From contig NZ_FYDE01000003.1 of NCBI RefSeq assembly GCF_900186535.1, positions 62,001 through 126,000 on the forward strand: a stretch of 64,000 nt of DNA, written 5' to 3'. The notes under the pieces were generated by a model, which saw only the letters and a list, made by a program, of their open reading frames with translations, did no database searches and was not told where the DNA came from. Below are positions 3,754 to 28,024 of this stretch, piece after piece. Each line of letters opens with the position of its first letter. Position 1 is the stretch's first letter. The translations under genes were made by a program, and so were the position numbers. Source of the DNA: Marasmitruncus massiliensis (lineage in GTDB: Bacteria; Bacillota; Clostridia; Oscillospirales; Ruminococcaceae).

Positions 3754-5568
3754 TCAGTCGTTGGAATCCAGCTTGAGCACAGCCATAAACGCTTCCTGCG
3801 GAACCGAGACGCTGCCGAGCTGCCGCATGCGCTTTTTGCCTTCCTTCTGCTTTTCCAGCAGCTTTTTCTTACGCGTAATGTCACCGCCGTAGCACTTGGC
3901 AAGCACATCCTTGCGCATTGCCTTGACGGTTTCGCGTGCGATCACCTTCCCGCCGATTGCGGCCTGAATGGGAATCTCAAACATCTGACGCGGGATATGC
4001 TCCTTAAGATTTTCCACCATCTTCCGGGCGCGGGGATAGGCCTTGTCCGCATGTGCGATAAATGACAGCGCGTCTACAACGTCGCCGTTGAGCAGGATAT
4101 CCAGCTTGACGAGTCTGGAATCCCGATATCCGCAAAGCTCGTAATCGAAAGACGCATATCCTTTGGTGCGGGATTTGAGCGCGTCGAAAAAGTCGTAGAC
4201 GATTTCATTGAGCGGAAGCTCATAATGCAGTTCCACACGGTCGGTATCCAGATACTTCGTGTCAAAATAAATTCCGCGCCGGTCCTGGCAAAGCTCCATG
4301 ATGTTGCCGATATAGGCGGTCGGCGTGAAGATATTCGCTTTCACGAACGGCTCCTGTGCGCTGGCAATCAGCGCGGGATCGGGGTAACTGGTGGGGTTGT
4401 CGATCCAGCGTTCCTCGCCGTTTGTCATCGTCAGCTTATAAATAACGCTGGGGAGCGTCGTGATGATATCAAGGTTGAATTCACGCTCCAGCCGTTCCTG
4501 AATAATCTCCATATGCAGGAGCCCTAAGAATCCGCAGCGGAAACCAAATCCCAGCGCCACAGAAGTTTCCGGCTCATAGGAGAGGGAGGCGTCGTTAAGC
4601 TGCAGCTTTTCCAGAGCATCGCGCAGGTCGGGATATTTTGCACCGTCCAGCGGATAGATGCCCGAAAAGACCATCGGCTGCACCTTGCGGTAACCGGGGA
4701 GCGGTTCGGCGGCAGGACGGGATGCGTCAGTGACGGTATCACCGACGGCGGTGTCCTGTACGGTTTTGATAGAGGCGGCGATATACCCAACCTGTCCCGC
4801 ATACAGTTCACTGCGCGGAACCGGTGTAGTCGCGCCCATGACGCCGCATTCCACCACGTTAAATTCCGCGCCGGTCGCCATCATCCGGATGGCCATGCCG
4901 GGCTTTACAACGCCGTCCTTCACCCGAACATACACGATGACGCCGCGGTAGCTGTCATAATAGCTGTCGAAGATCAGCGCGCGCAGCGGTGCGTCCTCAT
5001 CGCCCACGGGCGGCGGGACGTCTTTTACAATGCGCTCCAGCACCTGATGCACGTTTTCGCCGGTCTTGGCGGAGATGCGGGGCGCGTCCATGCACGGAAT
5101 CCCGATAACATCCTCCACCTCCTGCGCCACGCGCTCCGGCTCGGCCGCGGGAAGGTCGATTTTGTTGATGACCGGCGTTACCTCCAGGTCATGTTCAATC
5201 GCCAGATAGGTATTGGCAAGAGTCTGCGCCTCTATGCCCTGGGAAGCGTCCACAATCAGCACAGCGCCTTCACAGGCGGCGAGCGAACGTGAAACCTCAT
5301 AGTTAAAGTCCACATGTCCAGGTGTGTCGATCAGGTTAAAGTTATAGTCCTGGCCGTCGTCGGCGTGATAGGTCAGGGAAACCGCGCGCGCCTTGATGGT
5401 GATGCCGCGTTCCCGCTCGATATCCATATTGTCAAGAATCTGGTCTTCCATATCCCGTTTGCTGACAGTCTCGGTCTGCTCAAGGATACGGTCGGCCAGC
5501 GTACTTTTGCCGTGGTCTATATGCGCGATGATGCAAAAATTGCGAATATTCTCTCTGCGGTCTGCCAT
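3754..5568 (-). CDS. lepA: Elongation factor 4 (back-translocating GTPase LepA)
   Basis: Ribosome-associated translational GTPase, 604 aa, full family length. It shows the P-loop [13 protein letters not shown] near the N-terminus, the G3 motif DTPGHVDF, the G4 motif NKIDLP, and the LepA-specific C-terminal tail with [20 protein letters not shown] and [17 protein letters not shown]. The start ATG at 5568 has GGCAGGT five bases upstream. It closes the gpr-spoIIP-small membrane gene-lepA series, an order shared with Bacillus. A terminator (5692-5723) before lepA suggests it also has its own promoter. Confidence 0.98.
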
Positions 5569-5691
5569 TTGATACCTGCCGTTTCCGCCCGCCGGACGGG
5601 CTTTTCAGTTGCTTTGTTCAATGCTAAATTATAACACATCCGGTCCGCACTATGCAACGGGAATCTGTGCGGCGAAAAGACCGGAAGCATC

Positions 5692-5723
5692 AAAAAAACG
5701 CCCTATGAGACAGGCGTTTTTTT
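5692..5723 (-). terminator. Terminator after the small membrane gene
   Basis: An inverted repeat AAAAAAACGCC / GGCGTTTTTTT with a 10-base loop. The stop codon of the gene ending at 5703 lies inside the loop side of the hairpin, and the descending arm supplies the T-run. Confidence 0.85.
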
Positions 5724-6083
5724 GATATTTTGTAGATATTGATCATTTAAATACTGATCGTAATATTTGATCCAGTAATATTTACAGAGGGATACTGCGA
5801 TTTCTCCATTCAGGAGGGTGCGCGGCGTTACGAGGCAGGCGTATTCTTTTCGCCAGCTTTCCCATTGATTGACGGAATCGAGGGAAAGATGGTATTCCTG
5901 TCCCAGCAGCGCGACACGATAATGTAGCGCGTCGGGTTGGGAAAGGGAAAGGGCGGGCACTGTATCTCCGCTTTCGTATTGGGAACTGCTGGAATCGACC
6001 AGCAGGAACGCGGCAATCCAGCCGCTGAGGAGCAGGGATAGAAGGAATGCGGAAAAGAAGAGTCGTAAATCATTTTTTGTCAT
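5703..6083 (-). CDS. Small membrane-anchored protein in the yqxA position
   Basis: 126 aa, function not recognised. Residues about 7-30 form one hydrophobic segment (LFFSAFLLSLLLSGWIAAFLL), preceded by a short charged tail, so the remaining ~95 residues probably face outside. The rest is polar with no clear motif. It lies between spoIIP and lepA, where Bacillus has yqxA, also a small membrane protein. The placement suggests a conserved sporulation-locus gene, but sequence similarity to YqxA is not visible by eye. Confidence 0.7.
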   Translation of the reverse strand: MTKNDLRLFFSAFLLSLLLSGWIAAFLLVDSSSSQYESGDTVPALSLSQPDALHYRVALLGQEYHLSLDSVNQWESWRKEYACLVTPRTLLNGEIAVSLCKYYWIKYYDQYLNDQYLQNIKKTPVS

Positions 6084-6108
6084 CCTGTATTTTCACCTTA
6101 GATTTATC

Positions 6109-7314
6109 CTATTTATTATTTTCCGTAAGGAGCTTTGCGAGGGATTTTCCGACCATATGGGCGGTATAGATGCTTTCCTCCAGTGTATTGGCGCTGGCGC
6201 CGACTTCCAGCAGCAGCGAGCCGGTTGTCTTATCCATATTGTATTTTCGGTAACAGAAGAAAATCGGGCGGGTCAGCTGCGGATAGTCCTGCTCAATGGC
6301 ATCCTGCAGAGAGGCCGCAAATCGCAAATTCTCCCGCCACTTGGGCACATTCATCGTGCCGTCGTCGCTTCCGGTAATGATCATCAGCTGGGCGGCCTTT
6401 TTGCCGTCAATTTCCACCACCGGCTTTACAATGAGCTTTTCTTCGCGTTGAATCGCGTCCCTGTGCACATCAAGCGCAATTTTGATGGACGGATATTGAT
6501 CGAGGTAGGACTGAATGGTCTTGGCGCTGCGCTCGTAAGCGCCGTTATAAGAGGGGTAGTCGTGCTGTGTGGTATCATGCAAGACCCCGATGCCGGCATC
6601 CTGCAGTTCCTTGGCCAGGGCGTTCCCAACCGCCACCATGTTTTTCGTATTATCGGTGGAACGCCACGTATTGCGGATATCATAGGCGCTGCTGTCATAG
6701 GGCTCAAAGCTTTCGGTTGCGTGGGTGTGGAAAATAAGCACCTGCGGCTCTTTTGTATCCTCAAGCTGGATATTTAAGCCCTGCTTCATGATGGAAACCA
6801 CTTCACTGTCCGGAACCTGTGTATAGTTTCGAAGAAGCCCTTCTCCATAAGCCAGCAGATTCGAACCGCTGCCGGACATGTTTTCCTGAATCAGGGTGCC
6901 CCGGTAGGCCTCGGGAACTTCGTGGGTGTTATCCGACGCGGGCGACGGGTCCTGGCTGGTTGCTTTTTGGGGCGTCCGGGGAGGGGCGGAGGAAGATGCG
7001 CCCGAAGAAGCAGAAGATGATGTATCCGAATTTTCTTCCTCCGGGAAAGGTTCCACATAAGGGGCAACTTCACTTTCGTTGCCGTTATAGTATTCCTTAT
7101 CCAGCTTGTCTGAAAAACGATTCTCCAAAAGGGATAACGAACCCTCCGGCATACTGATCATAGCCGAGACCAACGCGGCCTTCTCCGTAAAAGCGGACAT
7201 GTCCACTGAAAATACAGCCGCAATGGTTAAGCCGATCGGCAGTATCGCGGCAACAGCGAGCAGTATCCATGGCCTTTTGCCTGACTGCTGTTTACGACCG
7301 TAATGTTTCAGCAT
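6109..7314 (-). CDS. spoIIP: Stage II sporulation protein P (peptidoglycan amidase/endopeptidase)
   Basis: Membrane-anchored hydrolase that works with SpoIID and SpoIIM to thin septal peptidoglycan so that engulfment can proceed. 401 aa: an N-terminal membrane helix (about 19-40), a low-complexity Ser/Ala/Pro linker (about 95-130), then the catalytic domain with VLIFHTHATESFEP and the later DVHRDAI block, both characteristic of SpoIIP. It lies 83 bases downstream of gpr on the same strand and is probably co-transcribed with it in the mother cell or forespore, as in other endospore formers. Confidence 0.95.
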   Translation of the reverse strand: MLKHYGRKQQSGKRPWILLAVAAILPIGLTIAAVFSVDMSAFTEKAALVSAMISMPEGSLSLLENRFSDKLDKEYYNGNESEVAPYVEPFPEEENSDTSSSASSGASSSAPPRTPQKATSQDPSPASDNTHEVPEAYRGTLIQENMSGSGSNLLAYGEGLLRNYTQVPDSEVVSIMKQGLNIQLEDTKEPQVLIFHTHATESFEPYDSSAYDIRNTWRSTDNTKNMVAVGNALAKELQDAGIGVLHDTTQHDYPSYNGAYERSAKTIQSYLDQYPSIKIALDVHRDAIQREEKLIVKPVVEIDGKKAAQLMIITGSDDGTMNVPKWRENLRFAASLQDAIEQDYPQLTRPIFFCYRKYNMDKTTGSLLLEVGASANTLEESIYTAHMVGKSLAKLLTENNK

Positions 7315-7397
7315 CCCTGTTCCCCCCTAGCCGACAGAACCGTTTCTGTTCATTTTATGAGAGGTTTCGGGAAAATATGACAATGCGGCCGAAGCAA

Positions 7398-8267
7398 TTA
7401 CGAAACCAGATAGGTGATATCCTCCATGGAAAGCCGTGGCTGAAGCGCGCTGTTGATGGCAAGAGAAAGATGCCGCGCGCCGCGGGCGATCAGTGCGTCA
7501 ATATCACGCGGGGTGACCATGACGGTGCGCGCGCGTTCGGGAATTTTGTCCTGCTCCGATTCCAGCAGGTCGGATATCATAGTCGCGCCGTCCACAACGG
7601 TAGGAATTCCGATTGATACAACCGGGACACCGAGCGTCTGTTCGGAAAGTTCCTTGCGGGAGTTCAGCACACCCGCTCCGGGGGCGATTCCCTGATCGGA
7701 AAGCTGGATGGTCTTTCCAAGACGGTCAAGTGAACGGGCTGCCAGCGCGTCAATCACAAGGACGGCGGCGGGCTTCAGGTCGTGTATCATGCTGAGAATG
7801 ATTTCACTTGTTTCGATTCCGGTCTGTCCAAGCACACCGGGGGCAATCGCTGCAACCGGGCGAAGCCCGGTCAGCCCGGTCTGTTTGGCAACCTGAGCGG
7901 GAATATGCCGTGTTGCGAAAATCTGCCGCGCCGCCAGCGGACCCAGGGCGTCGGGTGTAATATCCGAGTTGCCGAGCCCCACAACGAGCACCAGCCCAAG
8001 GGATGGAAGCAGCGAGGCGAGCTCATCGGCGAGCAGATGCGTGGCGTCGTCGGCAGGGCTGACGGAAGAATCGACCGCGGGCAGTTCAATGGTAATATAC
8101 TGCCCCTGTGCCCGCCCGAGCGCGCGTGCGCCCTGTTCGCTGGATATTACAACCCGCGTCAGCCCCACTCCGTTTCGTGTGTATTCTTCCACTGTAACCC
8201 CGTCTGGGAGGGTATCCCGATATTGTTCGGTCTGTTCCACCACGAGGTCGGTTCTAAGCAGGGACAT
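7398..8267 (-). CDS. gpr: GPR endopeptidase (spore germination protease)
   Basis: Degrades small acid-soluble spore proteins at germination so that their amino acids can be reused. 289 aa, slightly shorter than the Bacillus enzyme. Family blocks seen are RTDLVVE at the start, the YITIELPAVD segment, LVVGLGNSDITPDALGP and the ISVGIPTVVDGATMI-like region (VSIGIPTVVDGATMI here). The start at 8267 has TAGGAGGT at a good distance. It heads the sporulation cluster. No sigma-G-like promoter could be picked confidently in the upstream 100 bases. Confidence 0.95.
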   Translation of the reverse strand: MSLLRTDLVVEQTEQYRDTLPDGVTVEEYTRNGVGLTRVVISSEQGARALGRAQGQYITIELPAVDSSVSPADDATHLLADELASLLPSLGLVLVVGLGNSDITPDALGPLAARQIFATRHIPAQVAKQTGLTGLRPVAAIAPGVLGQTGIETSEIILSMIHDLKPAAVLVIDALAARSLDRLGKTIQLSDQGIAPGAGVLNSRKELSEQTLGVPVVSIGIPTVVDGATMISDLLESEQDKIPERARTVMVTPRDIDALIARGARHLSLAINSALQPRLSMEDITYLVS

Positions 8268-8706: not shown

Positions 8707-9903
8707 ATGGATTATCTTCAGCGCACGTGGGCGAAGATTAATTTGGACAACGTCGTCCACAATTATTATGAACTGAAAAAAAAGCTGAAACCGGAATGCA
8801 AAACCATGGCAGTCGTCAAGGCGGATGCCTATGGCCATGGCGACGGATATGTTGCCGCCGCGCTTGAGAACGCCGGAGCCGACTGGTTTGCGGTTTCCAA
8901 TATTAATGAAGCGGTTTCCCTGCGTAAGCAGGAGATTACCCGCCCGATTCTGATTCTGGGTTATACGCCGCCGGAAATGGCCGGAATGCTGGCCGCCCAG
9001 ACAATTTCACAGACTGTCTATTCCCTCGAATATGCACAGGCGCTGTCCCGCTCGGCGCAGGCGGCAGGTGTTTGTGTGGACTGCCATATCAAGGTGGATA
9101 CGGGCATGTCGCGTATCGGCTTTTTTGCGCAGCATGGGCATGAGGCGGAAGCGGCGGAGGAAATCGCGGCGGCCTGCGCGCTGCCCGGACTGAACTGCAC
9201 CGGAATTTTCACGCATTTTGCCTGCGCCGATGAGTTTTCGGAGGACAGCCGCGCCTATACGCTCAGGCAATTTGACACTCTGATACGTACGGTTTCGCTG
9301 CTGGAACAGCGGGGAATCCGGTTTTCCATCCGCCACTGCTGCAACAGTGCGGCGGCGATGGCCTATCCGCAGATGCACCTGGATATGGTTCGTCTCGGCA
9401 TTGTCCTTTACGGGCTGAACCCTTCGGATGAATGTGCGGGTATGGCCGACCTTCGCCCGGCCATGTCGCTTTATACCATTGTGACAATGGTGAAGAAGCT
9501 GGAAACCGGCATCAGCATCAGCTACGGCAGGCGCTATACTACTCAGGAGGACGGCAAAACAATTGCGTCGATCGCGGTGGGCTATGCGGACGGTTACCGC
9601 CGGAATTTTACCAACCGCGGCAGGGTGATTGTGCGCGGAAAGTATGCCCCGATTACGGGAACGGTCTGTATGGACCAGCTGATGATCGACGTCAGCGGAA
9701 TTGAGGGGGTCCGGACCGGCGATACGGTGACCCTGATCGGCGAAAGCGGGGAAACCAAAATTACGCTGGATGATTTCGCTGCCTGCAACGGCACGATCAA
9801 TTATGAGGAAGCCTGCCTGATTGGAAGGCGTGTCCCGCGCGTCTATTGGAAAGACGGGCGGCAAATCGCGGCAGTGGATTATGTGATTTCCGCATGGGAA
9901 TAA
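8707..9903 (+). CDS. alr: Alanine racemase
   Basis: PLP enzyme interconverting L- and D-alanine for peptidoglycan. 398 aa. PLP-binding Lys38 lies in MAVVKADAYGHG, and the catalytic tyrosine is in the SIAVGYADGYRR segment, followed by TGTVCMDQLMIDVS. The longer frame is rejected because its extra codons run through the AAGGAG ribosome site. ATG at 8707 sits 10 bases after that site. murD follows from its own promoter, making this a small cell-wall precursor neighbourhood. Confidence 0.97.
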   Translation: MDYLQRTWAKINLDNVVHNYYELKKKLKPECKTMAVVKADAYGHGDGYVAAALENAGADWFAVSNINEAVSLRKQEITRPILILGYTPPEMAGMLAAQTISQTVYSLEYAQALSRSAQAAGVCVDCHIKVDTGMSRIGFFAQHGHEAEAAEEIAAACALPGLNCTGIFTHFACADEFSEDSRAYTLRQFDTLIRTVSLLEQRGIRFSIRHCCNSAAAMAYPQMHLDMVRLGIVLYGLNPSDECAGMADLRPAMSLYTIVTMVKKLETGISISYGRRYTTQEDGKTIASIAVGYADGYRRNFTNRGRVIVRGKYAPITGTVCMDQLMIDVSGIEGVRTGDTVTLIGESGETKITLDDFAACNGTINYEEACLIGRRVPRVYWKDGRQIAAVDYVISAWE

Positions 9904-9924
9904 GCAATTTGCACAAAAACATTC

Positions 9925-9953
9925 TTGATAATTGCGCGTTACGCGAATATAAT
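9925..9953 (+). promoter_or_regulatory. Sigma-A promoter of murD
   Basis: TTGATA, 17 bases, perfect TATAAT, located 55 bases before the murD start in the alr-murD gap. Confidence 0.8.
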
Positions 9954-10007
9954 AGTTTCGTTGGCTTTTTATCAGCAGAATAACGATTGTTTTGGAGGCA
10001 GTCATTT

Positions 10008-11402
10008 ATGGACAGCAGGGTTCAGCATTTTTTTGAACAGATCAAAGGTGTGAAAATCTGTATCATCGGCATTGGCGTTAGCCACTCCGACCTAATCAGC
10101 CGTCTGGCGGAATACGGCGCGAAGGTTACCGCGTGCGACAAACGTTCCCGGGAAGAGCTCGGGGAGGCGCTTTGCAACAATTTTGAAGCGCAGGGGATTG
10201 AGCTGCGCCTGGGGCCCGGCTATCTCGACAGCATTGACGCCGAGATTGTCCTGCGCACGCCGGGAATGAAATTCTACCAGCCTGTGTTTGACGAGCTGCG
10301 CCGCAACGGTGTGGTGGTTACCAGCGAGATGGAGTTGTTTTTCGACCTTTGCCCCTGCAAAACCATTGCCGTAACGGGTTCGGACGGCAAGACCACCACC
10401 ACTACCCTGATCGCTGAAATCTTAAAGGAAGCAGGGCGCCGCGTCCATATTGGCGGCAACATCGGCCGCCCGCTAATGCCTTTGATCCGTGACATCCGTG
10501 AGAATGATTTTGCCGTTGTGGAGCTTTCCAGCTTCCAGCTGATTTCTATGCGCCAGAGCCCGGATATTGCCGTCATCACCAATATTACACCGAACCATCT
10601 GGACATTCATAAGGATATGCAGGAATATGTGGATGCAAAGAAAAACATCTTTCTGCATCAGGGTGCGTTTTCCCGCACTGTGCTTGGTGTTGACAATGAA
10701 CTGGCCGCTTCTTTTGAGAATGAAACGCGCGGACAGACGTTTTCTTTCTCGGTCAAACATCCGGTTCGCACCGGTGCTTATCTCGGAGAAGACGGCATCA
10801 TTTATCTGTCGGTGAACGGGAAGCCGCAGAAGATCATGCACGCAAGCGAGATTAAACTGCCGGGCATGCATAATGTGGAAAACTATCTGGCGGCGATCTG
10901 CGCTGTCTGGGGTTATGCCGACGCGGAAGCCATTTATAATGTTGCGGTGGAATTCGGCGGCGTTGAGCACCGGATTGAACTGGTGCGGGAAAGAAACGGC
11001 GTAAAATGGTATAACGACTCCATCGCCACCACCCCCACCCGTACTATCGCGGGGCTGGACAGCTTTGCGCAGAAGCTGATTCTGATTGCCGGCGGCTATG
11101 ATAAAAAGATTCCGTTTGAACCGCTGGCGCCCAAACTGATGGAAAAAGTAAAGGTTTTGATTCTGACAGGCACGACCGCGGATAAAATTGAACAGGCGGT
11201 CAAAGCTTATAGCGGGTATGATGCTTCTCAGCTGAAAATCCTGCGTGCAAAGGATCTGCCCGACGCGGTGCAGCTTGCCGACGGGCAGGCGAAAGACGGG
11301 GATATTGTATCGCTGTCCCCGGCCTGCGCCAGTTTTGACGCCTATCCCAATTTTGAATCCCGCGGGCAGCATTTCAAGGAGCTTGTCAGGGCACTTTCAT
11401 GA
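10008..11402 (+). CDS. murD: UDP-N-acetylmuramoylalanine--D-glutamate ligase
   Basis: Cytosolic Mur ligase adding D-glutamate to UDP-MurNAc-L-alanine. 464 aa with an N-terminal nucleotide-fold domain (KICIIGIGVSHSDL), the ATP-binding loop AVTGSDGKTTTTTLI (about 121-135), the central domain (NITPNHLDIHK) and the C-terminal Mur domain (VKWYNDSIATTPTRT, LIAGGYDKKIPFE). The start is ATG 10008 with GGAGG nine bases upstream. It is unlinked to the dcw cluster, as happens in some Clostridia. Confidence 0.97.
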   Translation: MDSRVQHFFEQIKGVKICIIGIGVSHSDLISRLAEYGAKVTACDKRSREELGEALCNNFEAQGIELRLGPGYLDSIDAEIVLRTPGMKFYQPVFDELRRNGVVVTSEMELFFDLCPCKTIAVTGSDGKTTTTTLIAEILKEAGRRVHIGGNIGRPLMPLIRDIRENDFAVVELSSFQLISMRQSPDIAVITNITPNHLDIHKDMQEYVDAKKNIFLHQGAFSRTVLGVDNELAASFENETRGQTFSFSVKHPVRTGAYLGEDGIIYLSVNGKPQKIMHASEIKLPGMHNVENYLAAICAVWGYADAEAIYNVAVEFGGVEHRIELVRERNGVKWYNDSIATTPTRTIAGLDSFAQKLILIAGGYDKKIPFEPLAPKLMEKVKVLILTGTTADKIEQAVKAYSGYDASQLKILRAKDLPDAVQLADGQAKDGDIVSLSPACASFDAYPNFESRGQHFKELVRALS

Positions 11403-15610: not shown

Positions 15611-15692
15611 GCGGGCGTGGCGGAATGGCAGACGCGCTGGTCTTAGGAGCCAGTACTTCGGTGTAAGGGTTCAAGTCCCTTCGCCCGCACCA
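15611..15692 (+). tRNA. tRNA-Leu (anticodon UAG)
   Basis: 82 bases including an encoded CCA. Acceptor arms GCGGGCG / CGCCCGC pair perfectly, and the TTCAAGT T-loop region is present. The anticodon loop CTTAGGA gives UAG, and the extended variable arm fits a class II tRNA. An A+T-rich defence island starts just beyond it, a common position for acquired DNA. Confidence 0.96.
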
Positions 15693-15750: not shown

Positions 15751-15787
15751 TATAACATCCTAAACTGTAGTCATTAAGTTCATGATT

Positions 15788-15836
15788 ACTCAAAACCAGC
15801 CCCATCTTCTCCGGAATGGAAAATACGGGGCTGGTT
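15788..15836 (-). terminator. Terminator of the defence operon
   Basis: On the minus strand a 10-bp stem AACCAGCCCC / GGGGCTGGTT lies just after the stop of the last operon gene (15839) and is followed by TTTTGAG. Confidence 0.75.
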
Positions 15837-15838
15837 CT

Positions 15839-16312
15839 CTATTTGAAAATAAGTAGCAACATACGGACACTTGATAGAAAAAATACTATTCCCTGCACGA
15901 AAAGAGCAACAGATAAATATTCGATATATTTCTTGGTCCTTACATATGCTTCGGATACCTGCTCTAACAGATTTATATCAATTATCATAATTAATAAAGA
16001 TAATGTGAGCAAGATTATTGAATGAAAAAACAACTTGTATATTGTCTTGTCGCTCCCAATTTCTTTTATTGACTGGAATTTTTGATTTCCATTGAGTGAT
16101 ATTAATAAAGCTACCCCGGCCAGCTCAAAGCCTGCAATGGTAGCTGAAAGTGATATAACGTCGGAATTAACCAGTGAGGAAATCTTGGATATAGGAACAA
16201 TTTCCGATTGTTTAACTGCTAAATATACTATGGACATAATGATAATTCCAACTGCCCAATGAAAGCACGCGAAAAATTTATCATGATAAAGCAACTTGTT
16301 AATTGCTTTCAC
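15839..16312 (-). CDS. Four-helix membrane protein, last gene of the defence operon
   Basis: 157 aa, not recognised. Four hydrophobic segments (about 14-34, 52-74, 94-113 and 130-155) with short connecting loops, a basic N-terminus and almost no soluble domain. It overlaps the end of the 337-aa gene by 14 bases (GTG start at 16312, AGAGGTGG upstream; GTG 16321 is an alternative), so the two are translationally coupled. In known defence pairs a small multi-helix protein next to a soluble partner often acts as a membrane-disrupting effector. Applied here that is inference from size, topology and position only. Confidence 0.7.
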   Translation of the reverse strand: MKAINKLLYHDKFFACFHWAVGIIIMSIVYLAVKQSEIVPISKISSLVNSDVISLSATIAGFELAGVALLISLNGNQKFQSIKEIGSDKTIYKLFFHSIILLTLSLLIMIIDINLLEQVSEAYVRTKKYIEYLSVALFVQGIVFFLSSVRMLLLIFK

Positions 16313-17312
16313 CGCTACCACCTCTCATATATTGCTTTGCTAAATCTTGTTTTTCTCTAAAGGCATCTTGAATGGCTGAGAACATTTGCTGGGAATTGAT
16401 ATACTTAGTTTTCGCAGAGATTTTCTCTACCCTTACTACTTGCAACAGCTTTTCATCTAACAAATCATATGGGATTATTTTGCATTCATCTGCATCGTAT
16501 CCCCGCATTTTCGCCTTTTTTAAAAGCGGTTCATCCTTATTTATAGTTTCCTCGTCTTCTTCCGCTGCTTTCTTAACTGCACTAATGACTTTATTTAAAA
16601 ATTTCCCGACATTCTTTACAGGAAGATTTTTTCCTCTTTTTCCGCCTGATAGTTCAACATCAACATAAAATGGCTCACTGATATCAAGGTTGTCCGAAGC
16701 AATATCGTATGCGTTGATGATGCCTTCCTCTTTTAGTAGCTTTAGTCCCGGTTTAGCAACTTTGAATTGGATTTTTGATATAGCTTTGCAGTTGGCAATT
16801 TTCTTATAATAATCAGGAATAATGATGGGAAGTACTTCAATATCATATATTCTGCTGGGATAGATGTCCTGTACCATTCGGCAAAGATGGCTCCCCAATC
16901 GCTCTATTCGAGCACCATGAAAATTGAATTCGCTAACAATCAGTCCTTGGTCTATGTAGCAGTAAAAATGAGTTTGCTCCATCAAGGTGTCATCTGCATT
17001 CGCAGTAATTTCTTGGCGTCTTCCATCTAGGACATTGAATAAATATGGGAAATCGGTTCTTCGAAGACTGTAAAACAAACCTCGATACACGTTCTTATCA
17101 CTCTTATGCGAATGCAAGTCGAGATAATGGTATTTGTCAAAATATTCAACGGCAAGCCCCCTTTCAATGAGCTTACTGTTATCTCCATTGGATTTCTTGA
17201 TATAAGCATCGAATACTTCCCTTATAGGAGCTATTTTCCCATTGTATGAGCAGGTGAATTTATAGAAATAAATTTTTCTTTCAACCGTCTGAGGTTTTGG
17301 GGGCTTTGCCAT
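16299..17312 (-). CDS. Soluble 337-aa protein of unknown function in the defence operon
   Basis: No family recognised with confidence. No signal or membrane segment. Notable blocks are KIYFYKFTCSYNG near the N-terminus, EQTHFYCYIDQGLIVSEFNF followed by HGARIERLGSHL in the centre (about 110-145), VLPIIIPDYYKKI, a Lys/Glu-rich low-complexity stretch (about 245-270), and a C-terminal KISAKTKYINSQQM. There is no visible Walker, nuclease or HTH motif. It follows hsdR by 23 bases and overlaps the four-helix membrane gene, so a sensor-plus-effector pair appended to a restriction operon is plausible but unproven. Confidence 0.7.
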   Translation of the reverse strand: MAKPPKPQTVERKIYFYKFTCSYNGKIAPIREVFDAYIKKSNGDNSKLIERGLAVEYFDKYHYLDLHSHKSDKNVYRGLFYSLRRTDFPYLFNVLDGRRQEITANADDTLMEQTHFYCYIDQGLIVSEFNFHGARIERLGSHLCRMVQDIYPSRIYDIEVLPIIIPDYYKKIANCKAISKIQFKVAKPGLKLLKEEGIINAYDIASDNLDISEPFYVDVELSGGKRGKNLPVKNVGKFLNKVISAVKKAAEEDEETINKDEPLLKKAKMRGYDADECKIIPYDLLDEKLLQVVRVEKISAKTKYINSQQMFSAIQDAFREKQDLAKQYMRGGSGESN

Positions 17313-17335: not shown

Positions 17336-20300
17336 TTAGTTTTTATCTGTCCACATCTCACATTGTGCCATTACAGTCTGTATCGCACCCTCAAGCCCTT
17401 CAGGAGGATACTTATACTTTTTAAGCAAGCGCTTTACCAGCATGCGCATTCCAGCACGTGCGCTGTCTTTTTTCTGCCAATCAATCGTGCGACTTTTTTG
17501 AAGTGCTGTGGTCAGCTCTTTCGTCATATCACAAAGCTGGTCATGTGTAAAAAAGTCTTTTATCGCTTCGGGTTTTGTAATTGCATCGTAGAAAGCCAGT
17601 TCCTCCGGTGAAAGTCCTAGATCATCACCTTCTTGATGGACTTTTCGTATATCTGATGCCATTTTCCGAAGTTCTTCAATTACTTCTGCATTGCTGAGTT
17701 GTCCATTTCGATATAAATTCATAATACGCTGCATACGTTCTGAGAACTTTTCTGCCTGCACGAGATTTGTTCGCTGATATGCTGAAATTTGCTCACTCAA
17801 TAGTTTTCGGAGTAATTCAGCAGCAAGATTCTTTTCCCTCATTTTACCGACCTCTTCGAGAAAAGCGGGATCAAATAACGAAAACTCCTCATTCTTGTCC
17901 GAAAACAGATTGATAACACCTTCACTGCGTATACTTTGCTTAAGCATTTCGTTGATTTGCTCGTTAATTTCCTTAAATGACAGCTTGCGAGGGGCAGATA
18001 TTTTACTGATTGCAACGCGAATCGCCTCAAAATAAGCTGATTCCATGCGCTGCTGTTTATTCAGCAGGCTTTGGCATAAGGTTTTTGCCTGACGAAGTAA
18101 TAACGCCTCTTTTTGAAACAGCTTTTGTGCATCTTCATTTTTCCCAAGTATGAAGTTAATTCCACCAGTAATCAAATTAGCACGTATTTTATCGTTACTA
18201 TCTTCTGCCAAGAAATAATCATATGTAAACCCGTAGAAAAACTCTCCGCATACTCTCAGTTTTTCTTCAAATTTAGGAAGTGCGGTTTTGGCAATATCCA
18301 TATCTCCATAGTTTTTGCGGTCACGAAGGGTATAATCGTTCATAGCCTCCTTGAGCGCACGAGCAATGCCTACGTAGTCCACAACCAAACCGCCTTCTTT
18401 ATCCTTAAAGACACGGTTTACACGAGCAATGGCCTGCATAAGGTTGTGACCGGACATAGGCTTGTATACATACATAGTAGCAAGGCTTGGAACATCAAAG
18501 CCTGTCAGCCACATATCCACCACAATAGCAATTTTCATTGGGTCATTATTATCCTTGAACTTACGTGCAAGCTCTTTTTTATATGCCTTATTTCCTATAA
18601 TAGCTCGCCATTCCTCCGGGTCGTTATTGCCCGAGGTCATAACTACTTTAACCTTTTCTGTCCAATCTGGGCGTAGCTCCAGTATCTTTCGGTGGATATC
18701 CAGAGCAATGGGGCGGGAATAGGCTACAATCATTGCCTTTCCAGTAAGCAAGTTCTCGCGGTTGTCCTCATAATGTGTGATAATATCTCTGCATAGTGTA
18801 TCAATGGTTTCAGGTGCCGCTAAGATAGCCTCCATACTGCCGAGCTCTTTTTTGCTGCGCTCAATATCCTGTTCATTGGCATTGAGTGCCAAAAGCTCAT
18901 AGGTAGTATCAATTTGCCGTAATACATCCTCTTTAAGTCCGAGGTTCATAACCCGGCTTTCATAATACACCGGGCGAGTGGCGCCATCCTCCACAGCTTG
19001 TGTCATGTCGTAAATATCTATGTAGTCACCAAATATTTCTCTTGTATTGCGTTCTTTCGATGAAACTGGCGTTCCGGTAAATCCAATAAAAGTGGCTTTG
19101 GGTAAGCAATCGCGCATAATGCGAGCCGTACCAATAACAACAGTTCCATCCTTTTTTACTCGCTCACTTAGTCCATACTGACTGCGATGAGCTTCATCTG
19201 CCATGACAATGATATTCCGCCGTTCTGAAAGCGGCTCTGAGGATTCCTCAAACTTTTGCATAGTGGTAAATATAATACCGTTTGCTTGTCGCCCATCCAG
19301 ATAATCTTTCAATCCAACTTCTTTTTTAACCGCTTTTTCTCCGATAGCAAGGGATTCTTTATATTCATCACTCAAACTCCGGCAAGTTGCCTGTACCGGG
19401 GTTTGGCGCAGAAAATCTTTACAGCTTGCAAATTGCAAATAAAGCTGATCATCCAAATCATTACGATCCGTAATGACTACAATTGTTAGACTGTCCAACT
19501 CCTGCTGTAAAAGGCCAGCGTAAAATACCATAGAAAGGCTCTTTCCACTGCCCTGCGTATGCCAGAATACCCCGCCCTTGCCATCGGTCTGAGTAGCATA
19601 ACAGGTGGATTCTACGGCTTTCCGGACAGCGAAATATTGATGGTATCCTGCTAGAATTTTATTATCCTCGGGCGTGTCTTGAGAAAACAGAACAAAATGC
19701 TGTATAATATCCAAAAATCGTTTGGGTTCCAGCATCCCTTGAAACAAAACATCGTATCGGGCATATTGCGTTTCTTCATAGTTTCCGTCAACTGTTTTCC
19801 AGTTAACGAATCGATCAAACCCCGAAGTAATTGTGCCGACCTTGGAATCAACTAAATCGCTGATGATACAAAAAGCATTGTATTGAAAAAGCACCGGTAT
19901 CTCATGCATATAGTTTTTAATCTGGCGATAGCCATTAGAAAAATCGGTGTCCTCTCGCATACAGCTTTTTAGCTCGATAACCACGAGAGGAAGTCCGTTA
20001 ACAAATATTGTGATGTCTGGGCGTTTCGTCTCATTTTCTACCACTGTCCATTGATTAATTGCATAAAATAGATTGTTATTAACATTGTGATAGTCAATCA
20101 ACTTGATAATATCGTGCTTGGTTTCACCATTTTTTTGATAACTGACTTCCATGCCGTTTTGGAGCCAGTCCGTAAACTGTTTGTTTTGCTGAATAAGCAA
20201 ACCATGTGCCATATGGGTCAGCTTATAAAGAGCCTCGTCTACTGCCTGTTTGTCCGCTTTGGAATTGATATGCGGGAGCCGCTCTGTCAATATATCCATA

Positions 20301-20413
20301 TATAGAGGATTGTGGAAATCCCGCTCAATGTCAGGGCCGTATAAACGAGTATAGCCTAGCTCATCCAGCAAAATCATCACGGCATTTTCGTAGTTGGATT
20401 CAAGGAAAGACAT
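17336..20413 (-). CDS. hsdR: Type I restriction enzyme, R subunit
   Basis: ATP-driven translocase and endonuclease subunit, 1025 aa. The N-terminal PD-(D/E)xK nuclease core is RPDITIFVNGLPLVVIELKS. Superfamily 2 helicase motifs follow: Walker A HTQGSGKSLSMVF, motif II MADEAHRSQYG, GFTGTP (motif III) and the QAIARVNRVFKDKEGG region (motif VI). The C-terminal helical domain binds the methylase core. ATG 20413 (with GAGGTGA upstream) is preferred over the longer frame, which would overlap the PLD-like gene. All motifs look intact. Confidence 0.97.
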   Translation of the reverse strand: MSFLESNYENAVMILLDELGYTRLYGPDIERDFHNPLYMDILTERLPHINSKADKQAVDEALYKLTHMAHGLLIQQNKQFTDWLQNGMEVSYQKNGETKHDIIKLIDYHNVNNNLFYAINQWTVVENETKRPDITIFVNGLPLVVIELKSCMREDTDFSNGYRQIKNYMHEIPVLFQYNAFCIISDLVDSKVGTITSGFDRFVNWKTVDGNYEETQYARYDVLFQGMLEPKRFLDIIQHFVLFSQDTPEDNKILAGYHQYFAVRKAVESTCYATQTDGKGGVFWHTQGSGKSLSMVFYAGLLQQELDSLTIVVITDRNDLDDQLYLQFASCKDFLRQTPVQATCRSLSDEYKESLAIGEKAVKKEVGLKDYLDGRQANGIIFTTMQKFEESSEPLSERRNIIVMADEAHRSQYGLSERVKKDGTVVIGTARIMRDCLPKATFIGFTGTPVSSKERNTREIFGDYIDIYDMTQAVEDGATRPVYYESRVMNLGLKEDVLRQIDTTYELLALNANEQDIERSKKELGSMEAILAAPETIDTLCRDIITHYEDNRENLLTGKAMIVAYSRPIALDIHRKILELRPDWTEKVKVVMTSGNNDPEEWRAIIGNKAYKKELARKFKDNNDPMKIAIVVDMWLTGFDVPSLATMYVYKPMSGHNLMQAIARVNRVFKDKEGGLVVDYVGIARALKEAMNDYTLRDRKNYGDMDIAKTALPKFEEKLRVCGEFFYGFTYDYFLAEDSNDKIRANLITGGINFILGKNEDAQKLFQKEALLLRQAKTLCQSLLNKQQRMESAYFEAIRVAISKISAPRKLSFKEINEQINEMLKQSIRSEGVINLFSDKNEEFSLFDPAFLEEVGKMREKNLAAELLRKLLSEQISAYQRTNLVQAEKFSERMQRIMNLYRNGQLSNAEVIEELRKMASDIRKVHQEGDDLGLSPEELAFYDAITKPEAIKDFFTHDQLCDMTKELTTALQKSRTIDWQKKDSARAGMRMLVKRLLKKYKYPPEGLEGAIQTVMAQCEMWTDKN

Positions 20414-20429
20414 GACAATCACCTCGCAG

Positions 20430-20969
20430 TTAAATAAGATTCTCTGATGTAAGAAAAGCAAATATATCAGATACATCAGCGTCATCAATGGCATTAACAT
20501 AGAATATTCGCTTACCCAAAATTCCGTTTAGTGATGTTCCCAAGATAAAACCACGACCGCTTTCTTTGATTATCCAAAACCGGTCATGAAAAGCACTGCA
20601 ATTCCTTTGTATTAAACAGATGCCTTTATCCTTAAGGATACTGGTAAAGAAGTGTAACGTGCTTGGGCAGATGTTTTTTTGCGGACACAATACACATATT
20701 TCCTTTGGCGCAATACCAATAATTGTTGACAAGAAAAAATCTATAATGTCTGGAGTGTTACATGAAAGGAAATATGGATCGGTAATTATTAGTGTGTGGG
20801 ATTTAGCGTCGACGTCTTCTAACATCCTCGTAAATTCAGTCTTTACATCACCTGTTAGCCTACCTCCATAAACCTTTTCTTCCTCATACACTACATTATC
20901 GCCCTTTTTGCGAAGCATACTACTAATTCCCTCAAAGAAACAATTCTTGCGTTTTATCACCAGTTCCAT
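20430..20969 (-). CDS. PLD-like protein inserted between hsdS and hsdR
   Basis: 179-aa soluble protein. LIITDPYFLS (about 60-69) and AFHDRFWII with FILGTSLNG (H128, R130; G144-N148) resemble one half of a phospholipase D-type fold. The usual HxK is HxR here and there is only one such motif, so an active enzyme would need to dimerise or may be non-catalytic. AAGGAGG lies 7 bases before ATG 20969; the longer frame is discarded. It sits 20 bases after hsdS and 16 before hsdR, so it belongs to the same transcript. Activity on DNA or nucleotides is inference. Confidence 0.7.
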   Translation of the reverse strand: MELVIKRKNCFFEGISSMLRKKGDNVVYEEEKVYGGRLTGDVKTEFTRMLEDVDAKSHTLIITDPYFLSCNTPDIIDFFLSTIIGIAPKEICVLCPQKNICPSTLHFFTSILKDKGICLIQRNCSAFHDRFWIIKESGRGFILGTSLNGILGKRIFYVNAIDDADVSDIFAFLTSENLI

Positions 20970-20989
20970 TATACATCCTCCTTCATCAT

Positions 20990-22201
20990 TCACACTTCAA
21001 TTTCACCGCTCATGAGCTTGGGTAACAGAGCATCGCGCAGGGCGGCAAGCGTCTGATTCTCTTTACGTAAGCCGGTTATCTTTTTTTGAAACTCCAACAC
21101 CATTATGTTGAGTTGCTGTATATAAATACTACTATCGGGTATTTCAGGTAACGCTATAGGATAGCTCATGATAGCTGTTTTGTCACCACGTGGCATCTTG
21201 GTGCCTTTAGATGTGGCAGTTGCATGCTCGAAAAAAGTATCACTATATAGAACGCTGTACAGTACCCCTATAAACGCTGCGTGTTTTGCCCGAAAAACAA
21301 GAACATCATTAGAGCATCCACCAACTTTATCCGAAAACCAAATCTTTTTAAAATATGGCCTAATATTTGATATCAATATATCGTGTTCCTCATATCTGCT
21401 TACCGCAGGCATGGAAGGTAAAGAGGTAGCCTCAATAACCCCTTGCTTATTTACTTGCATATTTTCTGTGGATATGTAATTTTCTGTATTACAATGACTG
21501 ACGGGTATTCGTTCCCCCACATATCGTGCAATATCTCCAAGTTTCCCTACCCGCCAGCCCTTTGGAATAAGGCCGAGCTCGCTCTCCACAAACTCACCAT
21601 CCTGAAACGGCTCAAAATCCACAAACCAACTTTTGAAGATAGCCTGCGCCTGCGCTTCCAGATTGGCATTGATCTTGTTGTTTAGCTCTATTTTGTTATC
21701 AAGGCAGGAGAGGGTAGCAGCCATAGCACGTTGTTCAGAGAGGGAGATATAGGGTATTTGTAGGCTTTCCAAGTGTGGAATACGCAGGTTACTAACGGTT
21801 GTACCAGTTCCATCACTCCATGAAATTTGGTGCTGAACATATTTTGACATAAGTATGTAGAGCAAGTATCTATTATCACAAACCGCCTTATTAGGCTTCA
21901 ATAATACCATTCTCTGCCCAAGGCAACACTCAAGTCCCTCGGGAATCATGCATACTTCACCCATCGGTGCCTCGCGTGTGATAATAATATCCCCCGCACA
22001 AGGTTTAGCTCTTTTCCGTCTTAGCAAGTAGCTTTGCTCAGTTGTATAAGATGGATTAGATAAATCCATCTTTCCATTCTTAATATATTGATTCCTAATT
22101 ACCAGTTTACCACCATTTGTCCATTCGGGTGTTGAATGGGGGCAGTCGGTAATGGAAATACATAACTCAATTAATTTTTTTGAAATCATACGCTCACTCA
22201 T
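20990..22201 (-). CDS. hsdS: Type I restriction-modification specificity subunit
   Basis: DNA-recognition subunit shared by methylase and restriction complexes, 403 aa. Two target-recognition domains (about 5-150 and 210-350) are separated by the conserved helical spacer NLEAQAQAIFKSWFVDFEPF, and the second conserved helix ends TLAALRDALLPKLMSGEIEV. The pseudo-repeat architecture is complete, so a bipartite target is expected; the recognised sequence cannot be read from here. Its start overlaps the Cys4 mini-gene by 8 bases. Confidence 0.95.
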   Translation of the reverse strand: MSERMISKKLIELCISITDCPHSTPEWTNGGKLVIRNQYIKNGKMDLSNPSYTTEQSYLLRRKRAKPCAGDIIITREAPMGEVCMIPEGLECCLGQRMVLLKPNKAVCDNRYLLYILMSKYVQHQISWSDGTGTTVSNLRIPHLESLQIPYISLSEQRAMAATLSCLDNKIELNNKINANLEAQAQAIFKSWFVDFEPFQDGEFVESELGLIPKGWRVGKLGDIARYVGERIPVSHCNTENYISTENMQVNKQGVIEATSLPSMPAVSRYEEHDILISNIRPYFKKIWFSDKVGGCSNDVLVFRAKHAAFIGVLYSVLYSDTFFEHATATSKGTKMPRGDKTAIMSYPIALPEIPDSSIYIQQLNIMVLEFQKKITGLRKENQTLAALRDALLPKLMSGEIEV

Positions 22202-22412
22202 TCTTCACATTTAATTTGGCAAATTGTTTTTTCCATGCAGATGATGGTTTCCTGCATATGCCGTCTTCCCGACTAAACGCGCAAATATTTGCCAACCCAT
22301 TTGAGCCACAAATATCTGGATTTGTATGGCGACAGCCGATGGTTTGAAAAGGTGTATCATTCGTCTTTAAAGGCGAATTGAACGGTACACGAAGCTCTTT
22401 ATCAGGCCTCAT
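22194..22412 (-). CDS. Cys4 mini-protein between hsdM and hsdS
   Basis: 72-aa protein with four cysteines (C27, C35, C44, C53; spacing x7, x8, x8) in IGCRHTNPDIC, NICAF and DGICRKPSSAW. This suggests a small metal-binding module. ATG 22412 has a G-rich site just upstream and overlaps the end of hsdM by 11 bases, while its stop overlaps the hsdS start. Such compact coupling argues for a real gene. I have an impression that similar small genes occur in other type I operons, but cannot name a family. It could modulate specificity or assembly. Confidence 0.6.
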   Translation of the reverse strand: MRPDKELRVPFNSPLKTNDTPFQTIGCRHTNPDICGSNGLANICAFSREDGICRKPSSAWKKQFAKLNVKNE

Positions 22413-23904
22413 AACCAATCGCCCCCAATCTCCGGCGAATTTCATCTTCTAATTCATGGCTTTGTGCGAATAAATTAGACAATTCGCTCGTCAGACGTGC
22501 CATTTTTTCCTCAAAAGGCTCACCATCATCCTCTTGCTCGGCCAGCCCAACATAACGCCCCGGAGTCAAAATATAATCTTGTTTAGCGATTTCTTCCGTT
22601 GAAGCAGCAGCGCAAAAGCCAGCTTCATCCGCTAACGTACCTTCCTCGAAAGCAATAAAAGTATCAGCAATCTTAGCAATGTCTTCGTCTGCCATTTCTC
22701 GCAGGCGACGGCTAATCATAGTTCCCATATTACGGGCATCAATAAACAAGGTTTTACCAGGCTGTTTTTTGGCACGATTTAAAAACCACAGCGAAACAGG
22801 AATTTGTGTGGTATAGAATAGTTGTGGCGGCATGGCGACAATACCTTCCACTAAGTCATCTTCAATAATCTTTTTGCGGATTTCGCCCTCGCCACCGCTC
22901 TGGCTGGAGAGTGAGCCGTTAGCCAACACCATGCCAAGGCGACCCTTGGCGCTTAAATGGTGAATCATATGCTGCATCCATGCAAAGTTCGCGTTGCCAG
23001 CAGGGGGAATACCATATTTCCAACGTATATCATCAGCCAGCTTATCTGCTCCCCAGTTGGAAAGATTAAACGGAGGATTGGCCAAAATATAATCAGCCTT
23101 CATAGTGGGATGAAGGTCTTTAAAGAATGTATCCTCCGATGTCCTTCCAAGGTCAGCTTCAATACCATGAATGGCAAGATTCATTTTGCACAGCTTCCAT
23201 GTAGTGGGGTTTGAATCTTGTCCATAAATGGATAAGTTATTGATATTTCCTCTGTGAGCCTGCACGAAGTTTGCAGACTGTATAAACATACCGCCGCTAC
23301 CACAGCAGGGGTCATATACACGTCCATTAAAAGGCTGAATTACTTCTACCAAAGTGCGGACTACACACGCAGGAGTGTAAAATTCTCCAGCTAGCTTGCC
23401 TTCCTGTTCAGCAAAGCGTCCAAGGCAGTATTCATATGCTCGTCCCAACAAATCCATCGTGCCACCATTAGCAGCTACGGCTATGTTGGTAAACAAATCA
23501 ACCACTTCACCCAACCTACGTTTATCCAACTCTGGTCGAGCAAAGTTTTTTGGTAAAACACCTTTTAGAATTTTATTAGCTTGCTCAATAGCGTCTAATG
23601 CGAAATCAATCACTTTTCCGATTTCCGGTGTATGTGCCTGCGATTTGATATTAGTCCATCTGGCTGCGGCGGGAACAAAGAAGATATTATCTTCCAAATA
23701 GGCATCTTTATCTTCTTCAAATCCTTCTCCTTCTTCAAGTAATTTCTTATATTTATGTTCAAACCGATCCGATATGTATTTTAAAAATATAAGTCCCAAT
23801 ATAACATGTTTATATTCAGCAGCGTCCATGTTTCCACGCATAATGTCGGCTGCCTTCCAAATTTCTTTCTCAAATCCAAGTTCTACACTATTATTTACTG
23901 CCAT
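22402..23904 (-). CDS. hsdM: Type I restriction-modification methylase subunit
   Basis: N6-adenine methyltransferase subunit, 500 aa. The HsdM N-terminal helical domain (KAADIMRGNMDAAEYKHVIL) is followed by the SAM-binding motif I VYDPCCGSGGMFIQS and catalytic motif IV LANPPFNLSNW. The overall look is of the EcoR124 (IC-like) group. ATG 23904, with GGAGG seven bases upstream, follows the XRE gene's stop by two bases. With HsdS it protects host DNA. Confidence 0.97.
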   Translation of the reverse strand: MAVNNSVELGFEKEIWKAADIMRGNMDAAEYKHVILGLIFLKYISDRFEHKYKKLLEEGEGFEEDKDAYLEDNIFFVPAAARWTNIKSQAHTPEIGKVIDFALDAIEQANKILKGVLPKNFARPELDKRRLGEVVDLFTNIAVAANGGTMDLLGRAYEYCLGRFAEQEGKLAGEFYTPACVVRTLVEVIQPFNGRVYDPCCGSGGMFIQSANFVQAHRGNINNLSIYGQDSNPTTWKLCKMNLAIHGIEADLGRTSEDTFFKDLHPTMKADYILANPPFNLSNWGADKLADDIRWKYGIPPAGNANFAWMQHMIHHLSAKGRLGMVLANGSLSSQSGGEGEIRKKIIEDDLVEGIVAMPPQLFYTTQIPVSLWFLNRAKKQPGKTLFIDARNMGTMISRRLREMADEDIAKIADTFIAFEEGTLADEAGFCAAASTEEIAKQDYILTPGRYVGLAEQEDDGEPFEEKMARLTSELSNLFAQSHELEDEIRRRLGAIGYEA

Positions 23905-23906
23905 AA

Positions 23907-24116
23907 TTAATCCTCCGCATCCATCAAATTGTCTATATCCACTCCGTGTAGTTTGCAAAAATCAAAAAATACTGACTGGGTTAATTTGTTAGGACGTGTT
24001 TTTCCATTTTCCCATCGGTTGATGGTGGCAAAGCTCACATTTAAAGCACGTGCCAGATCTTCTTGGCTCATGCCTGTCTTTTCTCTTATTAATCTTACAA
24101 TTTCGTAAAAATTCAT
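23907..24116 (-). CDS. XRE-type HTH regulator leading the hsd operon
   Basis: 69 aa, essentially a single Cro/C1-type HTH domain: IREKTGMSQEDLARALNVSF (recognition region SFATINRWENGKTRPN). It is the first gene of the operon, two bases before hsdM. A 12-base-period direct repeat lies between its start and the probable promoter. By analogy with control proteins of restriction systems it may time expression of the methylase and nuclease; this is inferred from position. Confidence 0.88.
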   Translation of the reverse strand: MNFYEIVRLIREKTGMSQEDLARALNVSFATINRWENGKTRPNKLTQSVFFDFCKLHGVDIDNLMDAED

Positions 24117-27661: not shown

Positions 27662-28024
27662 ATGAAAGAGGTTGCGGAAAAAATCAAATTGCTGCGAGAA
27701 AGCGTGAATTTATCGCAGGCAAAACTTGCGACATTGGCCGGGGCCACTCAATCCAGCATTAACCGATATGAAAACGACCAGTCTGCTCCGCCTTTGCCAT
27801 TGCTCGTCTGGTATGCGGATTATTTTGACGTATCTCTGGATTATATCTTTGGCAGAACGGACAAGCCGGAAGGCAGACTATACGACTATAAACCGAAATT
27901 CTCTGAAGAAAACCAACAGCTTCGGCAGTTTATCGAAATGTGCTTTGACCCCAAATCCCCCATGAATGATAAGCTAAAACAGGCTCTGATAGAAATGATT
28001 TCGAAAGGCGGTGACAGTGTGTGA
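27662..28024 (+). CDS. XRE-family HTH regulator
   Basis: 120 aa. The N-terminal Cro/C1-type domain is IKLLRESVNLSQAKLATLAG with ATQSSINRYENDQSAP, followed by YFDVSLDYIFGRTDKPEG, the usual linker of this regulator type, and a helical C-terminus that may dimerise. Its stop overlaps the recombinase start (GTGA), so the two are co-translated. It probably represses the recombinase and itself. Confidence 0.9.
   Translation: MKEVAEKIKLLRESVNLSQAKLATLAGATQSSINRYENDQSAPPLPLLVWYADYFDVSLDYIFGRTDKPEGRLYDYKPKFSEENQQLRQFIEMCFDPKSPMNDKLKQALIEMISKGGDSV

Follow-up and report, generated by a model that had tools for sequence, protein, structure and literature searches.

A Candidate RexAB-Type Abortive-Infection Pair Closing a Type I Restriction Operon

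Introduction

What is the role of a soluble protein and a small membrane protein whose genes close a type I restriction operon in Marasmitruncus massiliensis? These genes lie in a 64,000-nucleotide stretch of contig NZ_FYDE01000003.1 (positions 62,001 to 126,000; the whole stretch is called the window here), and the initial annotation, made from the letters alone, had guessed that they formed an anti-phage pair of the kind that kills through membrane damage. That guess gained support from the analyses described below, as a profile link to RexA of phage lambda points to that class of system. Our preferred reading, to which we give a probability of about 0.62, is that the pair is a RexAB-type abortive-infection module at the end of the restriction operon; its design is known, its restriction-modification (RM) setting new and its sequence distant.

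PMC11077077 describes lambda RexA as a dimer whose two-domain fold is RdgC-like and which binds DNA irrespective of sequence; the paper also reports that in RexA mutants DNA binding did not track with exclusion, and that some bacterial RexA homologues lie outside prophages or lack RexB. In Pseudomonas putida, overproduction of the RexA-type protein led to growth arrest and membrane damage through the RexB-type protein, the membrane damage affecting a small fraction of cells, with no measurable depolarisation (PMC12894663). That paper, published in 2026, notes that 70 years after the discovery of lambda RexAB its activation is still not understood, and it lists five RexAB-like systems described so far, which it names as phage- or prophage-borne. 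A literature search found DUF6731 and PDC-M67 (two family labels that recur below) absent from full texts, and no RM-coupled Rex pair in titles or the starts of abstracts among the matches listed, bioRxiv preprints and most subscription papers lying beyond its scope.

The Gene Pair and Its Operon

On the minus strand of the window the genes run hsdM, hsdS, a 187-aa ORF, hsdR, the soluble gene and the membrane gene, and 23 bases separate hsdR from the ATG of the soluble gene (Table 1). The second GTG of the membrane gene, at 16312, has the better ribosome site (by eye) and aligns with the starts of homologous membrane proteins; a product of 157 aa from this codon is more likely than one of 160 aa from GTG 16321, and with this start the two genes overlap by 14 bases. 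Four hydrophobic stretches are spread along the 157 residues (19-residue windows starting at about 11-24, 50-58, 89-104 and 128-139). The hairpin at the operon end has a folding energy of -32 kcal/mol (z -7.1, equalled by 0 of 200 shuffles) and is followed by a short U run; it is absent from the list of a consensus terminator scanner that permits loops of 3-8 only. The pair probably shares its transcript with the RM genes. The initial annotation had given lengths of 337 and 157 aa, an overlap and four helices, all of which were confirmed by the ORFs and their hydrophobicity, and its placing of the pair after a complete type I system and before a terminator agrees with the three hsd genes upstream and the strong hairpin downstream.

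Two minor points concern the upstream genes. For HsdR, an in-frame ATG near 20413 is the likelier start (by eye). The 187-aa ORF overlaps hsdS by 4 bases, and its C-terminal part resembles the VPA1262 N-terminal domain (1.5e-5, below cut-off) and PADLOC PDC-S05 (3e-4); it may be another gene of defence or accessory function embedded in the operon.

Table 1. Features of the operon in the window, and the genes directly upstream of the pair in its near relatives.
Locus	Feature	Position	Strand	Basis or remark
Window	Soluble RexA-like / DUF6731-superfamily protein, 337 aa, ATG start	16299..17312	-	ORF, homologues, profile match via intermediates; putative DNA-binding sensor
Window	Membrane protein with four helices, RexB-like (160 aa if begun at GTG 16321)	15839..16321	-	ORF, clade profile match; putative membrane effector
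Window	HsdR, type I restriction subunit, 1054-aa ORF	17336..20500	-	Family scans
Window	187-aa ORF between hsdS and hsdR	20430..20993	-	Weak VPA1262 N-terminal domain / PADLOC PDC-S05 similarity
Window	HsdS, type I specificity subunit	20990..22201	-	Family scans
Window	HsdM, type I methyltransferase subunit	22402..23958	-	PF02384, 366 bits at window 22528-23457
Window	Terminator-like hairpin at operon end	15780..15845	-	Folding energy vs shuffles
Window	tRNA-Leu adjoining operon end	15611-15692
L014	Type I system (HsdM, HsdS, HsdR) and YgjP-like peptidase
L008, L009, L010	Cytosine methylase and EcoO109I-type endonuclease			Pfam on L009 record
L011	End of cytosine methylase and Eco47II-type ORF
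L012	Amino-methylase (by eye), Vsr-like ORF (by eye), methylase-nuclease fusion, then 196-aa ORF
L013	Double cytosine methylase and 412-aa ORF			Weak REase_II match of the 412-aa ORF, 5.3e-4
L007	D12 adenine methylase, HerA-like ATPase, 461-aa ORF	3803-7967

A Likely Distant Relative of RexA

The soluble protein had been annotated as lacking a recognised family, and in direct Pfam and NCBIfam scans of the window protein that description held; neither PADLOC RexA nor PF20505 (DUF6731) matched it at E ≤ 1, and the libraries scanned placed it in no housekeeping family. The direct scans (Pfam, PADLOC, PHROGs, NCBIfam) returned weak matches only, those to SoFic-like_C (0.09), Tom6 (0.42) and AmaP (0.45) being noise. 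Two PHROG matches, 10865 (3.8e-6) and 7651 (1.1e-4), are to families of unknown function, and the PADLOC PDC-M67A model matched the window protein at 4.3e-4 over 86 residues, its best match being the protein of locus L011 (8.2e-7 over ~100 residues). In sequence searches against solved structures, one query (A1) returned nothing beyond DUF507 (0.12) and phycocyanobilin lyase (2), which were disregarded, and another (A4) gave no match.

The description failed once relatives were brought in. A homologue that is 55% identical (from genome G290) passes DUF6731 with 30.4 bits, and a more distant one from C. symbiosum (L015) does so with 33.0, the cut-off being 27. As no gene of its own genome matched PF20505 at E ≤ 1e-4 either, the window protein is, judged by sequence, a relative outside DUF6731 as that family is now drawn.

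The link to RexA came from comparisons of profiles (hhalign) built from eight near-clade proteins (W, from which the broken L014 protein was excluded), six distant proteins (V), five intact proteins of a DUF6731 set (D) and eight RexA proteins (R). W matched V with a probability of 99.7% (E 2.8e-26) and D with 90.6% (E 1.3e-6), and V matched D with 98.3%. Against R, the probability was 68.2% for D (E 4.7e-5), 93.4% for V (E 2.5e-7), 95.6% for W+V (E 1.3e-8) and 97.6% for W+V+D (19 sequences; E 4.7e-12 over 266 columns). For the five pairs that the controls covered (W-V, W-D, V-R, WV-R and WVD-R; V-D and D-R were outside them), neither reversal nor any of 40 column shuffles per pair reached an E below 0.02. 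W alone did not match the RexA set significantly (E 0.13), and the RexA link of the window clade therefore needs the intermediates. Against a single RexA, E was 6.6e-7 for W+V+D, 0.002 for V, 0.06 for D and 0.57 for W. A 100% match between a further profile (A9) and RexA was discounted, since A9 itself includes RexA sequences. Taken through the intermediates, these similarities support homology between the soluble protein and lambda RexA, and make the window protein a putative distant relative of both the DUF6731 and the RexA families.

The Membrane Partner

Corresponding profiles were made of the partners of W, V and D (MW, MV and MD) and of RexB (MR). The three partner groups resemble one another, with probabilities of 97.3% for MW-MV, 88.0% for MW-MD and 94.0% for MV-MD, and a reversed MD control against MV reached E 0.0078. 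Towards RexB, MV-MR reached 51.9%, MW-MR (E 0.07) and MD-MR (E 0.38) were not significant, and the widest membrane profile gave 15% at E 1.7e-3. The W+V membrane match to RexB proves little, as the best of 40 shuffles had E 0.0058 against the observed 0.0024. PADLOC RexB was matched by the membrane proteins of L006 (3.1e-6) and L015 (0.0049), and not by those of the window, L007, L012 or L013. The likeness to RexB is therefore held more weakly than that to RexA, and is carried by the L006 and L015 matches together with the fixed gene order.

A Pair That Recurs

Among 391 genomes of the class there were three matches to the soluble protein, in the own genome, in G290 and in G375, the last of which (L004) was dropped as spurious: it contains two stops and is antisense to a long ORF, judged by eye to encode glycogen phosphorylase. 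Searches of the phylum and the order each found two genomes, the own genome and G403 among 398, and the own genome and G814 among 345; DUF6731 was detected in four of the 398 phylum genomes and was absent from the own genome. A tblastn search of phage and plasmid sets, a single-sequence scan of genome contigs and a two-row scan of viral contigs produced no match. A pattern scan of genome contigs with a two-row alignment matched 107 stretches, of which nine encode relatives (L007-L015; L009 is the G290 record and L014 the G814 record).

In all, 22 distinct loci were examined: nine of the near clade (the window and L007-L014), six more distant (L006/L052, L026, L044/L049, L045/L046, L047 and L015; L048, listed with the same match as L047, was left out) and seven of the DUF6731 set (L016/L053, L017/L020/L056, L018/L021/L055, L019/L054, L058, L059 and L060). 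The ORF directly after the soluble gene encodes a multi-helix protein in every one of them (a rough count gives 3 to 6 hydrophobic stretches), e.g., a 163-aa protein with four such stretches in G290, and 3-5 helices in 7/7 loci of the DUF6731 set. Because the same order recurs in other genomes, with the soluble proteins 48-66% and the membrane proteins 35-69% identical, the pair is not a product of chance. That two unrelated genes merely happened to follow hsdR is barely credible: the absence of the soluble gene from the ten other genomes of the genus (it was found in one of 11, its own) would suit such an accident, and against it stand the pairing in 22/22 loci and the position beside RM genes in 9/9 near-clade loci.

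A side observation from the DUF6731 set is that in L056 (at ~8801-10027; also L017/L020) the DUF6731 gene is interrupted by an ORF that by eye is TnpB-like.

Restriction Neighbourhoods

In all nine loci of the near clade, i.e., the window and its eight relatives at 48-66% identity, RM or RM-like genes immediately precede the pair on its own strand, and across the loci they are of at least five unlike kinds (Table 1). The expectation that the pair would be conserved outside close relatives and beside other defence genes was thus borne out in 9/9 loci, the window included. In six loci the last upstream ORF and the soluble gene are 17-33 bases apart; the gap is 57 bases in L014, 132 in L013 and 310 in L011. 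The three EcoO109I loci share both RM genes and pair, the RM genes of L008 and L010 being 79-93% identical to those of L009 or to each other, and they were counted as one arrangement. The Eco47II-type ORF of L011 is probably broken, since it covers 130 of 202 profile positions. RM partners were weakly or not recognised in L007 (461 aa), L012 (196 aa) and L013 (412 aa), and searches of these three ORFs against solved structures came back empty; the D12/HerA/461-aa system of L007 is possibly an undescribed RM-like defence. In the window's own genome there are two strong N6_Mtase loci, three more barely above cut-off and a single DNA_methylase gene split into two pieces, and with so few methylase loci (two families counted) a random gene would seldom fall directly behind RM genes.

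Similar pairs stand beside dissimilar RM genes. The window and L007 pairs group together at 99/98 and are 66% (soluble) and 69% (membrane) identical, and the first is behind a type I system and the second behind the D12-methylase/HerA system. Between the window and L014, both type I operons, the soluble proteins are 61% identical (over the first 196 aa) and the membrane proteins 52%, as against 30% for HsdM and 31% for HsdR over the matched parts. The best reading of these identities is that the pair moves between unlike RM operons.

Outside the near clade, one of the six distant loci (L052, its soluble protein 24% identical to that of the window) ends a type I operon of the order hsdM-hsdS-hsdR-YgjP-pair, the third type I operon with a pair. 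By eye, no RM gene was seen in 12 kb at the C. symbiosum locus (L015), and in the DUF6731 set, with neighbours judged in the same way, 0/7 loci showed one. Of the other distant loci, L026 belongs to an archaeal virus, and viral contigs carry L044, L045 and L047. As an aside, a YgjP-like metallopeptidase gene sits between hsdR and the pair in two distant type I operons (L014, 7215-7943; L052, 10937-11350).

These neighbourhoods bear on two alternatives that would tie the pair more closely to restriction. It could be a guard or addiction module that kills cells losing their RM enzymes, or whose phage inhibits them, and RM-linked suicide is known (HSD proteins, latent anticodon nuclease); the tight placement behind several kinds of RM operon would fit. 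We consider this quite unlikely: as one pair family stands behind unlike RM enzymes, there is no one protein that it could guard by contact, and the more distant pairs occur in phage contigs, where no RM genes were seen. Alternatively, the pair could be a restriction accessory or regulator with no abortive role, e.g., one that tames self-cutting or alters DNA passage at the membrane, as its position at the ends of RM operons and its hydrophobic partner might suggest. We regard this as very unlikely, given the profile similarity of the soluble protein to RexA and the homologous pairs in phage contigs and C. symbiosum beside which no RM gene was seen by eye.

Comparison with Known Systems

With lambda RexA/RexB the pair shares the succession of a soluble protein (279 aa in lambda) and a four-helix protein (144 aa), in identical order, and a profile match via intermediates across nearly the whole soluble protein. 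It differs in that the window's soluble protein is 58 aa longer, with a similarity that is invisible in direct HMM scans, in the weak link of its membrane protein to RexB, and in its setting: lambda RexAB is behind the phage repressor, whereas the window pair ends an hsd operon next to tRNA-Leu. The prophage/repressor setting typical of RexAB is thus missing here, though it is a setting and not a mechanistic requirement. The DUF6731 proteins of Bacillota phages and prophages are alike in their profile match to the near clade and their multi-helix ORF downstream, and unlike in that several adjoin terminase genes in phage records or lie, by eye, in prophage-like stretches, with no RM gene seen (by eye). 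RexABpp of P. putida (PP_5643/PP_5644) is likewise a two-gene system, of a DNA-binding RexA-like protein and a four-helix membrane-damaging one (PMC12894663); it is prophage-encoded, and its likeness to the window pair lies in the published description.

Systems of the DUF4747/CarolAnn type share the general design, and PMC13373217 reports loci in which RM operons lie upstream of some CapKS-linked immune operons, with CapK/CapS between, and names DUF4747/CarolAnn as an example. In contrast, the pair of the window clade begins 17-132 bases after the last upstream ORF in 8/9 loci (L011 aside), which leaves no room for capK/capS. The Rex-like proteins of CarolAnn, Sbash and Sejanus (L080, L081, L082) had no profile similarity to W, V or D, a comparison of three sequences for which a deeper profile might find some.

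Kiwa (KwaA/KwaB) was also considered, for its like make-up of a multi-helix protein and a soluble partner of ~315 aa and for a sub-threshold KwaA match (E 0.19). A Kiwa relationship is nonetheless highly improbable. One Kiwa pair was compared (L079, in which KwaB passes PF16162 and KwaA was taken by position and hydrophobicity), and there the membrane ORF comes first, the opposite order; its KwaB matched W, V, D and WVD at E 0.12-0.44 (WVD 0.44) and its KwaA matched MW, MV, MD and MWVD at E 0.18-0.7. A KwaA search of 61 genomes found no match.

Several observations on Rex-like pairs arose along the way. Compared with the lambda RexA set, the RexA-like proteins of CarolAnn, Sbash and Sejanus likewise showed no similarity of profile (E 0.49; three sequences), and the published Rex-like label may for that reason join unrelated proteins. 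The CarolAnn and Sbash pairs have been experimentally tested and that of Sejanus is annotated; in the accounts given, the label goes back to a DUF4747 motif in common or to weak HHpred similarity to DUF4747 (PMC6426596, PMC6426606, PMC7542560). In the archaeal pleolipovirus GahPV1 (L026, 1600-3459), gp17-gp19 are a winged-helix regulator followed by a RexA-like/multi-helix pair, a layout that resembles cI-rexA-rexB, and gp18 is 28% identical to the L006 protein. Rex-like pairs of phage contigs occupy late-gene positions: in L058 and L059 they precede annotated terminase genes, and by eye they precede terminase in L045 and adjoin a lysin gene in L047.

How the Pair May Act

If the pair is of RexAB type, a dimer of the soluble protein would handle DNA without sequence specificity, as RexA does, sense a DNA or DNA-protein state associated with infection and then switch on the membrane protein. 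The latter, by analogy with what is proposed for RexB, would open or damage the inner membrane, so that growth stops and the infection is aborted. Placed as it is, the pair might act as a second line once restriction has failed or has begun cutting.

The roles could also be reversed, i.e., the soluble protein could be the antiviral effector and the membrane protein its bound silencer, as is reported for gp30/gp31 of mycobacteriophage Butters (PMC12894663). The membrane gene is open while the soluble gene is broken in L014 (a stop), L018/L055 (two pieces in different frames) and L017/L020/L056 (an inserted ORF), and the membrane protein alone therefore seems to be tolerated. Such losses are also expected if the soluble protein is no more than the switch, and in lambda, P. 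putida, CarolAnn and Sbash the membrane protein is described as the effector (PMC12894663); we consider the reversed arrangement unlikely.

As for the trigger of a RexAB-type pair, closely related pairs sit behind unlike RM systems, which tentatively favours a shared signal, be it the phage itself or its DNA when broken or recombining, over contact with a particular RM protein. A bolder and more doubtful proposal is that a RexAB-like clade has moved out of prophages and turned into a second, mobile stage of RM systems, set off by cut or recombining foreign DNA and shutting down the membrane when cutting is insufficient. That DNA damage made by RM systems might summon a later abortive system has already been proposed (PMC13373217), and a layout in which RM genes and abortive-infection genes directly adjoin would add to the RM/CapKS/immune-operon layout of that paper. 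The RM setting has DNA cutting, a plausible trigger, built in, and if the second-stage proposal were true, the natural trigger of Rex would become testable by supplying restriction cuts. In addition, a bacterial clade adjoining RM genes would widen the RexAB family, and DUF6731 proteins would gain a testable function.

A Possible Mobile Element

The flank with tRNA-Leu matches, at least partly, in all 11 genomes of the genus, and its match to four relatives (of the ten found) stops at or before the tRNA-Leu end. A search for direct repeats returned no convincing attachment sites. The stretch between tRNA-Leu and a large serine recombinase gene at 28021-29655 (+) may be a mobile element; its GC content is 0.36-0.43, compared with 0.56 upstream, and near the recombinase gene an ORF at 27662-28024 encodes, by eye, an HTH repressor.
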